Translations under genes and position numbers: made by a program
Assembly (NCBI GenBank): GCA_003279015.1
Contig: QCBV01000003.1
Span: 124,001-188,000 of the forward strand
Direction: 5' to 3'
DNA from: Prochlorococcus sp. AG-347-J19
GTDB lineage: Bacteria; Cyanobacteriota; Cyanobacteriia; PCC-6307; Cyanobiaceae
DNA: 64,000 bases
Notes under the pieces: model-generated
Database searches by the model: none
What the model was told of the DNA's origin: nothing
The model's input: the letters and a program-made list of their open reading frames with translations, nothing else
Shown: positions 788 through 40,505 of the stretch, piece after piece
Layout of the letters: each line of letters begins with the position of its first letter
Position numbering within the stretch: the first letter of the stretch is position 1

Positions 788-853
788 TGCTCAAGTCCCC
801 GTCCTATGGCTTGAGTCGTACTGCGGTCTATCAAATGGTAGATCGGACGATTT
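788..853 (-). ncRNA. Putative downstream-peptide (glutamine-II) riboswitch
   Basis: On the minus strand, CGTCC (849-845) pairs with GGACG (804-800), and CTCAAG (815-810) pairs with CTTGAG (795-790), in the interleaved order of an H-type pseudoknot. An imperfect hairpin lies at about 844-825. The opening ATCGTCC, the internal GAC-x-GCAGTA block and the closing AGGACG resemble what I remember of the glnA/downstream-peptide consensus (AUCGUUC, GACGGAAGUA, AGGAACG). The last pairing strand ends about 8 nt before the AGGAG site of the 33-codon gene, so folding could block translation. A covariance-model search would settle it. Confidence 0.55.
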
Positions 854-3432: not shown

Positions 3433-3574
3433 TAGCTACTGGCGAACGTGAGAAGGTATTTAGAGAATATAATTTCTAAGCAAAAATTTATACAAATTTT
3501 TTTAAATTTGGAATAATTTTTTTGAAGATATTTTCCTTGAATTATTTATAATTTGAGATTTTTTTGATCCTTAA

Positions 3575-3653
3575 TCCGTACAATTTTGTTCCTCTAACCG
3601 CACACATAAAACTTGAAATCTACCATTTAAATGAATTAGAACATAGGTGTAGT
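3575..3653 (+). repeat. 79-bp upstream element, copy A
   Basis: Aligns without gaps to 15,761-15,839. Shared blocks are TCCGTAC, TGTTCCTC, AACCGCACACAT near the left end and TTAGAACA..AG..GTAGT at the right end; by eye about two thirds of positions agree. It ends about 15 bases before the ATG at 3669. The conserved blocks do not keep a common reading frame, so a promoter/5' UTR or small RNA is more likely than coding sequence. Confidence 0.55.
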
Positions 3654-3668: not shown

Positions 3669-3821
3669 ATGGCACTAAATGACACATTTACTATCCAAGA
3701 AATTAATTTGGATCAAAAAGACCTTTCATATTCCAATAAGCTCAAAGAAATTGAAGCTTATTGGAATAAAGAATGTGCTGAACATCCGAGTAACAACCAT
3801 TGCAAGATTTTTTGTGATTAA
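3669..3821 (+). CDS. Small cysteine-motif protein, NKEC family (50 aa)
   Basis: ATG at 3669 to TAA. The frame is open back to a TTG at 3564, but that extension coincides with the non-coding 79-bp element, so the internal ATG (preceded by AAAGGG) is chosen. The C terminus has the pattern NKEC-x3-P-x4-C-x3-C, shared with the neighbouring gene at 4024-4170. The three cysteines could bind metal or form disulfides. Function unknown. Confidence 0.6.
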   Translation: MALNDTFTIQEINLDQKDLSYSNKLKEIEAYWNKECAEHPSNNHCKIFCD

Positions 3822-4023: not shown

Positions 4024-4170
4024 ATGAAACTACAAACTCAGTTCACGGTTCCAAAAAAAGAATTAAAAGATCTTGATTATGTTAAGAAAGTAGATTTCTT
4101 AGAAGAAACTTTAAATAAAGAATGTATGGATTATCCAAATCAAGAAGATTGCTTGGTTTGTTGCAATTAG
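4024..4170 (+). CDS. Small cysteine-motif protein, NKEC family (48 aa)
   Basis: ATG to TAG, with AGGAG about 10 bases upstream. The C-terminal 18 residues (NKECMDYPNQEDCLVCCN) align without gaps to the end of the protein at 3669-3821, keeping NKEC, the proline and two cysteines. Together the pair defines a small paralogous family; a metal or redox role is only a guess. Confidence 0.6.
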   Translation: MKLQTQFTVPKKELKDLDYVKKVDFLEETLNKECMDYPNQEDCLVCCN

Positions 4171-15454: not shown

Positions 15455-15637
15455 TTAATAATCTTCATTGTAATCGGATGGACTACCGGTTAAAGAACAA
15501 ACAACTGATTCCTCTTTTTTCATTTCTTTTATTTCCATTATTGGTCTGCCCATTTTCTTAAGAACATCTATATCTTCTTTAGTCTGACAGCGAGCAATTA
15601 TGTTTCCTTTTTGATCAAAGCAACTGTAGTAAGTCAT
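15455..15637 (-). CDS. Hypothetical 60-residue protein, MTYYSCFDQKGN type
   Basis: Minus-strand ATG at 15,637 to TAA. A compact beta-rich N terminus (YYSCFDQKGNIIARCQT) has two cysteines; the middle is helical (KEDIDVLKKMGRP) and the end polar. Probably co-transcribed with 15,319-15,450. I believe homologues exist in other marine picocyanobacteria; function unknown. Confidence 0.62.
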   Translation of the reverse strand: MTYYSCFDQKGNIIARCQTKEDIDVLKKMGRPIMEIKEMKKEESVVCSLTGSPSDYNEDY

Positions 15638-15660
15638 TTTATTAAATACAATTTAAAGTT

Positions 15661-15708
15661 CATGGTTGATTTCAGTTGCAGCAATGCAACCGACTCATGA
15701 CAACCATG
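15661..15708. ncRNA. Nested hairpin with a GNRA loop
   Basis: Outer arms CATGGTTG (15,661-15,668) and CAACCATG (15,701-15,708); inner hairpin GTTGCA-GCAA-TGCAAC (15,675-15,690) whose loop is a GNRA tetraloop on the plus strand. It lies between a minus-strand gene start and the 79-bp element. It could be a 5' UTR structure of either flanking gene. Confidence 0.35.
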
Positions 15709-15760
15709 TTTCTAATTTAGGTCAGCCATAGATTTAAATGGCTAAAAAAACATACCTCTT

Positions 15761-15839
15761 TCCGTACCTAAATGTTCCTCAAACCGCACACATTAGATAC
15801 GCAGTGTTTTAGTCAAATCATTTAGAACAAAGAGGTAGT
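15761..15839 (+). repeat. 79-bp upstream element, copy B
   Basis: Gap-free match to 3575-3653 with the same blocks (TCCGTAC, TGTTCCTC, AACCGCACACAT, TTAGAACA). It ends just before a 12-codon ORF (15,843-15,881) and the WLD-LIN gene at 15,865. The downstream genes of the two copies are unrelated, so the element is likely regulatory or an RNA in its own right. Confidence 0.55.
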
Positions 15840-15864: not shown

Positions 15865-16002
15865 ATGAGTGGAGATTTTGAGACTCTTGAAATTAATCAA
15901 CCAAAAATTAAATATTTAAAACCAGAAGATAATACAAAATGGTTAGACAAATTAATTAATAATATTGAGGACATGAAGAAGAAGATATCAAAAGATTCTT
16001 AG
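15865..16002 (+). CDS. WLD-LIN family protein (45 aa)
   Basis: ATG to TAG, with AAGGAG 5 bases upstream. The N terminus differs from its paralogues, but NTKWLDKLINNIEDMKKKIS matches the cores at 12,295-12,411 and 13,213-13,320. The 79-bp element lies directly upstream, and a 12-codon ORF overlaps its start in another frame and could tune translation. Confidence 0.6.
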   Translation: MSGDFETLEINQPKIKYLKPEDNTKWLDKLINNIEDMKKKISKDS

Positions 16003-40361: not shown

Positions 40362-40422
40362 TTAATACTTTTGATAATCTTTGTTGTCATACACGCTTGG
40401 ACATCCTTTGTTGTAAGAATGG

Positions 40423-40442
40423 GTCTGATTTTTCAGACCTAC
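40423..40442 (-). promoter_or_regulatory. Hairpin in the a-c intergenic gap
   Basis: GGTCTGA, a TTTT loop, TCAGACC (plus-strand view) is a perfect 7-bp stem inside the 162-base gap before atpH. It could be a processing or attenuation site that raises the c-subunit dose. Confidence 0.35.
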
Positions 40443-40505
40443 GCGATAGATATTTTGCCAGATTACAGACCCTTTGTAAAAGCGTCTGAATGTATTAGAA
40501 GACAG

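Follow-up and report, generated by a model that had tools for sequence, protein, structure and literature searches.

Two short stretches of non-coding DNA in the window, that is, in the whole stretch of 64,000 nucleotides of Prochlorococcus sp. AG-347-J19 analysed here, resemble each other closely, and each lies shortly 5' of a short open reading frame (ORF) on the plus strand. This raises the question of what the shared sequence is: a site acting as DNA, an element acting as RNA, a coding sequence, or a trace of duplication.

The two copies in the window

The initial annotation had aligned positions 3575-3653 (copy A) with positions 15761-15839 (copy B), and the match is real. The gapless alignment has 55 of 79 positions identical (70%), whereas the next-best gapless 79-mer against copy A, anywhere in the window and on either strand, reaches 40/79, and the background of such matches has a mean of 22.3 (sd 4.0). 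The window contains exactly two occurrences of the 21-mer TGTTCCTCWAACCGCACACAT, which never appears in 100 dinucleotide-preserving shuffles with up to three mismatches tolerated, and AACCGCACACAT is confined to copies A and B across the whole 1.59-Mb genome. The boundaries had to be corrected: the 79-bp match stands, but the conserved unit begins about 10 bases further 5', at 3566 and 15752, and the list of shared blocks had missed a further half-site of the repeat, most of which falls in this added 5' part. The features are collected in Table 1.

Table 1. Parts of the element and neighbouring features in the window
Feature	Position	Strand	Remark
Copy A, half-site 1, CCTTAATCCGTAC	3569..3581	+	sequence; 98% pairwise identity in 40 sampled orthologues
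Copy A, half-site 2, CCTCTAACCGCAC	3591..3603	+	exactly 22 bp 3' of half-site 1
Copy A, downstream block, TTAGAACATAGGTGTAG	3636..3652	+	candidate core promoter
Short ORF of the NKEC family, 50 aa, MALNDTFTIQEIN...YWNKECAEHPSNNHCKIFCD	3669..3821	+	begins with ATG; kept at the same distance at ~75 orthologous loci
Second conserved dyad, ATGGTTG...CAACCAT	15660..15707		upstream of copy B
Copy B, half-site 1, CCTCTTTCCGTAC	15755..15767	+	
Copy B, half-site 2, CCTCAAACCGCAC	15777..15789	+	exactly 22 bp 3' of half-site 1
Copy B, downstream block, TTAGAACAAAGAGGTAG	15822..15838	+	candidate core promoter
Short ORF, 45 aa, MSGDFETLEINQPKIKYLKPEDNTKWLDKLINN...	15865..16002	+	begins with ATG; kept 3' of copy B at ~40 loci

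The initial annotation had called the two downstream genes unrelated, and no homology of the B ORF to the NKEC profile is detectable (hhalign probability 0.1%). None of the tested proteins, the A and B ORFs included, passed the Pfam or NCBIfam thresholds.

Architecture of the element

The element precedes nine families of ORFs, designated A to I. In all of them its core is CCTYWAWCCGTAY arranged as a tandem direct repeat, i.e., two near-identical 13-letter words with an exact 22-bp period. A second block, TTAGAACATAGNNGTAG, lies at a fixed distance 3' of the repeat and is followed by the start codon of a short ORF. The identity between half-sites averages 0.65 at an offset of 22, compared with 0.18-0.38 at each of the remaining offsets between 10 and 33, and 22 gives the highest value in each of the nine families. 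Between families, identity is 0.75-0.76 in the half-sites, 0.51 in the spacer, and 0.35-0.37, near background, in the flanks and middle. Within families, the repeats are 89-99% identical, compared with 38-77% for the far upstream flank; in families A and B the 7-nt spacer is also 94-99% conserved.

The spacing to the second block falls into two classes. In families A, B, C, D, E, and I, the hexamer TAGAAC starts 24-26 nt 3' of the 47-nt repeat core and the ATG mostly follows 54-68 nt past the core, and the sequence between the core and TAGAAC has diverged between families. In families F, G, and H, an equivalent TAGGAC or GAGGAC is found 11-12 nt past the core, and this hexamer and the ATG are both closer to the repeats by about 11-13 nt. 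This shift is suggestive in being roughly one helical turn, although it comes from three related families only.

At nearly all intact sites a short ORF starts 45-68 nt 3' of the repeats, and a few orphan copies have no ORF downstream. Orphan copies lacking an intact short ORF were seen at loci L180, L183, L310, L314, L316, L325, and L334; some of these are near other copies in the same variable region, and the orphans suggest gain and loss of cassettes.

Such cassettes also bear on another explanation of the repeated sequence, namely, recent duplication of one island cassette, comprising the intergenic region and the ORF, with little selection on the element itself. In line with this, a further upstream segment of ~90 nt is common to copies B, C, F, and H and to several orphan copies, and several of the ORFs (A, C, F, H, and I) are homologous. 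However, A, D, and E have nothing obvious in common with B beyond the repeat and the second block, and the D and E proteins are unlike NKEC and are encoded on contigs other than that of the window. Since the repeats are conserved far above their flanks, as described above, the explanation is already contradicted and we consider it improbable.

The conserved dyad upstream of copy B, which contains an inner GTTGCA/TGCAAC hairpin, lies in a segment common to copies C, F, and H and to several orphan copies in relatives. It was not seen upstream of A, D, and E. The divergent small ORF 15455-15637(-) starts about 20 nt from the dyad, which could be a separate operator or a hairpin.

Distribution among genomes

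The initial annotation had named a lack of further copies in related genomes as counting against its reading, but such copies are plentiful. An exact pattern of the element is present in 21 of 60 related genomes, all of the same genus, and in a species-level collection at least 117 contigs carry orthologues, nearly all titled Prochlorococcus and a few titled Synechococcaceae. Copies A and B are conserved as separate orthologous groups, the former followed by an NKEC-type ORF and the latter by an ORF beginning MSGDFETLEIN, at a nearly constant distance.

Two profiles were used to extend the search. The first (R1), built from the sequence of A, B, and a third type, was run over 251 genomes of the family, where its full-length matches are confined to the same genus; in 58 other genera the best match is partial, with an E-value of 0.003, which is expected by chance because so many genomes were scanned. 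The window's own genome (G000) contains four sites: A, B, G000:C4:142768-142853(-), and G000:C8:94468-94554(-), the last two in front of ORFs of 61 aa (family D) and 45 aa (family E), respectively. The second profile (R2), 47 nt long and covering the repeats alone, finds strong sites in 38 of 39 Prochlorococcus genomes of the same genus, mostly 2-9 per genome. The sole exception, G315 (97% complete), has only a chance-level match, and is a useful comparison for finding the regulator. Outside the genus, in a 39-genome sample of the family covering 27 other genera, R2 gave nothing better than E = 0.14. The element is thus restricted to this Prochlorococcus genus, with no convincing copy in the other Cyanobiaceae genera sampled.

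Among viral sequences, the 21-mer had no match in IMG/VR; one half-site used alone matched 67 contigs, mostly GC-rich, none of which contained a genuine tandem repeat. In two of these contigs a CCGYA word occurs nearby, which is not a tandem repeat.

The downstream ORFs

The ORFs of families A, C, F, H, and I form one small family with a protein of cyanophage P-TIM68 (MKL..FTI...YW.KEC...P.N.HC). In the phage (L401, 1201-1356), the NKEC homologue lies between a heat-shock-protein gene and a DNA polymerase region, and the repeat was not seen in the 190 nt 5' of it. Within the window, a second NKEC-family ORF, MKLQTQFTVPKKELKDL..., is located at 4024-4170(+), shortly 3' of copy A, with no repeat before it. 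Since a relative of this ORF in genome G015 (L180) is preceded by the repeat, the element may have been lost at 4024-4170 or gained in G015.

The family D protein matches PHROG 8866 (E = 1.9e-6) and belongs to a family present in 13 of 31 sampled Cyanobiaceae genera. Phages P-HM1 and MED4-213 carry relatives immediately 5' of the plastoquinol oxidase gene; the homologue occupies 1192-1353 of L402 and L403, and its end overlaps the start of this terminal oxidase gene. Family D may correspond to Syn_n060, a short peptide described from the Red Sea as widely distributed and highly expressed (PMC5069720). In one other genus, g79, the D orthologues are without the 22-bp repeat. Another tandem word, TTCGGT, is found there (L384-L386) in two copies 23 bp apart, about 60-90 nt 5' of the D orthologue; because it occurs once per genome in 4 of 5 genomes, it was rejected as a regulon of g79.

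A probable operator and promoter module

What has to be explained is thus a tandem repeat with a 22-bp period, at a fixed spacing to a second block and an ATG, that recurs before unrelated ORFs and is restricted to one genus. A shared cis-regulatory element in front of unrelated short genes is well supported, and in outline the shared regulator or promoter of the initial annotation is borne out by the occurrence of the same repeat before nine ORF families. We consider, with a probability of roughly 65%, that the element is a transcription-factor operator and promoter module of a lineage-specific regulon of proteins of about 45-61 aa. As in a regulon, the conserved site is found at a fixed place 5' of several genes in many genomes, and two short motifs at fixed spacing with diverged sequence between them would be typical of an operator and a core promoter.

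In this module, a DNA-binding protein would occupy the two near-identical half-sites CCTYWAWCCGTAY head-to-tail, as direct-repeat sites two turns apart suggest; being 22 bp apart, the half-sites would lie on about the same face of the helix. The bound protein would be placed 5' of a weak core promoter, of which TTAGAACATAGNNGTAG would be the conserved part with TAGAAC in the -10 position, and, as an activator, would turn on a ~20-nt leader and a single ORF of 45-61 aa. Four things are inferred here: action of the element as DNA, an activator as the bound protein, TAGAAC as a -10 hexamer, and a single regulator for all sites. Some observations speak against this reading. TAGAAC lacks the T that is usual at the last position of a -10 hexamer, a promoter scan found no sigma-70-like pair in the right place, and the conservation of the spacer in families A and B exceeds what a simple operator of two half-sites needs.

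RNA and peptide alternatives

The repeats might lie within a 5' UTR of ~100 nt as an unstructured RNA element, recognized either by an RNA-binding protein with a tandem site or by a small RNA acting in trans. The unit as a whole is in sense orientation and leads into the ATG, and in families A and B it is conserved nearly unbroken from the repeats to the ORF; moreover, family A has a TATAAT-like word ~15-20 bases 5' of the repeats, and a conserved AT-rich block immediately precedes them in families D and E. However, the families share no -10-like block at a fixed distance 5' of the repeats, and the promoter scan gave none just 5' of them. In addition, a search of the genome on both strands for exact matches of CCTYWAACCG beyond the four repeat sites returned only two, both outside repeat pairs and at least one of them apparently inside coding sequence, so that the genome offers no evident small RNA complementary to all 10 nt. 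We regard this alternative as unlikely, though deserving of some weight.

A structured RNA, such as a riboswitch or a small-RNA gene, fares considerably worse. Here TGTTC would pair with GAACA and ACCTCTTT with AAAGAGGT. Copy B does fold better than its shuffles (z -2.3), and in an alignment of 11 sequences the covariation score was reached by only 5 of 500 shuffles. However, 95% of the shuffles of copy A fold better than copy A itself, at least 6 of the 7 pairs of the outer stem are present in only 1 of 178 sites from all families, and an intact inner stem is found in 93 of the 178; this stem is broken without compensation in D and E, where GTGC or GTAC stands opposite an unchanged GAAC. The consensus fold energy is no better than the level of column shuffles in families A, B, C, E, and I and in the pooled families; it is slightly better in family H (z -1.4), and the value in family D (z -3.4) is due to one 4-bp GUGC/GUAC hairpin inside half-site 2. 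Rfam, at both gathering and permissive thresholds, gave no match to the element. The structured reading is therefore largely refuted, and the small RNA of the initial annotation is not supported. The case against RNA structure is strong but not absolute, because covariation in the small alignment exceeded that of most shuffles.

A conserved upstream short peptide (a leader ORF, ...PY..VPQTAHI), with conservation at the protein level, is suggested by the fact that most copies in one frame read L-[FY]-P-Y...V-P-[QL]-T-[AV]-H and that copy B contains an ATG (MAKKTYLFPYLNVPQTAHIRYAVF). This reading has the least to recommend it and was rejected. In family F, no start codon (ATG, GTG, or TTG) lies between the repeat and the in-frame stop that precedes it; in families C and D, CAA is replaced by TAA and yet the sequence past this stop is still conserved; and the two half-sites fall in different frames, 22 being no multiple of 3. 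The frame shift and the TAA in C and D indicate that the constraint is on nucleotides rather than on a peptide.

Candidate regulators and known systems

Sites of AraC-type activators have long half-sites in head-to-tail order, ~21 bp apart. The element resembles them in having long head-to-tail half-sites about two helical turns apart, 5' of a putative weak promoter. Nevertheless, no AraC-type HTH_18 protein (PF12833) was found in the window's genome (96% complete), compared with 9 positives among 14 control genomes, and an AraC-family operator was accordingly rejected.

RpaB binds HLR1, which consists of two (G/T)TTACA(T/A)(T/A) repeats 2 bp apart. HLR1 is likewise a direct repeat, bound by an OmpR-type response regulator in cyanobacteria, but its sequence and spacing are unlike those of the element. 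The window's genome encodes five OmpR-type regulators. Four of them are shared and, since they are also found in picocyanobacterial genera without the element, are weaker candidates. The fifth is variable, and from its sequence we take it to be PhoB-like. Genomes G301 and G326 have four OmpR-type regulators without this PhoB-like fifth and keep 3 and 2 matches to the repeat model, respectively, three being full-length in G301 with the R1 profile. PhoB (SphR) is therefore not required and was rejected as the necessary factor. That neither an AraC-type nor the PhoB-like protein accounts for the sites counts against the operator reading.

The site of this regulator, the cyanobacterial Pho box, has the form CTTAACCT, with 8-bp repeats, 3-bp linkers, and an 11-bp period (PMC1906773). 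The element resembles it in its tandem direct repeats 5' of the targets, and its CTYWAWCC is similar to CTTAACC. However, its period is 22 bp and not 11 (half-site identity is 0.29 at offset 11), its half-site extends into CCGTAY, it persists without a PhoB-like regulator, and no phosphate gene was seen among its targets. The cyanobacterial LexA box, AGTACWNWTGTACT (PMC3091678), contains similar GTAC/GTWC words, but it is a 14-bp palindrome-type site rather than a 22-bp direct repeat, and identity with it was rejected, as the element does not match its consensus.

Two further classes of conserved non-coding elements in marine picocyanobacteria are the Glutamine-II riboswitch (Downstream-peptide motif, RF01704), which also lies 5' of short ORFs, and the Yfr small RNAs of Prochlorococcus (PMC2518516). 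The element differs from both in having neither an Rfam match nor a supported structure. The window itself contains a Glutamine-II riboswitch aptamer at 790-852(-) (59 bits) and an ATPC RNA motif (RF01067, 90 bits) at 40392-40480(-).

Biological significance

A literature search of incomplete coverage found no published description of the regulatory motif, which is real and apparently new to the literature, and which would mark out a regulon of tiny genes specific to the lineage. For Prochlorococcus, whose cells are among the most abundant photosynthetic cells of the ocean, only a few regulators are known and few regulons have been described, and its numerous tiny genes without known function are hard to study singly. 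Through an operator motif present at mostly 2-9 strong sites per genome, several such genes can be grouped under one probable regulator, for which the motif provides a defined DNA bait. Some of the encoded proteins have relatives in cyanophages, in one case next to a plastoquinol oxidase gene, and the regulon may therefore be connected with light stress or infection. As a tentative extension, which we think rather doubtful, there could be a global regulon of the Prochlorococcus lineage in which a lineage-specific regulator, acting through 22-bp tandem repeats, would control fast-evolving tiny proteins in a programme of response to light stress or phage.
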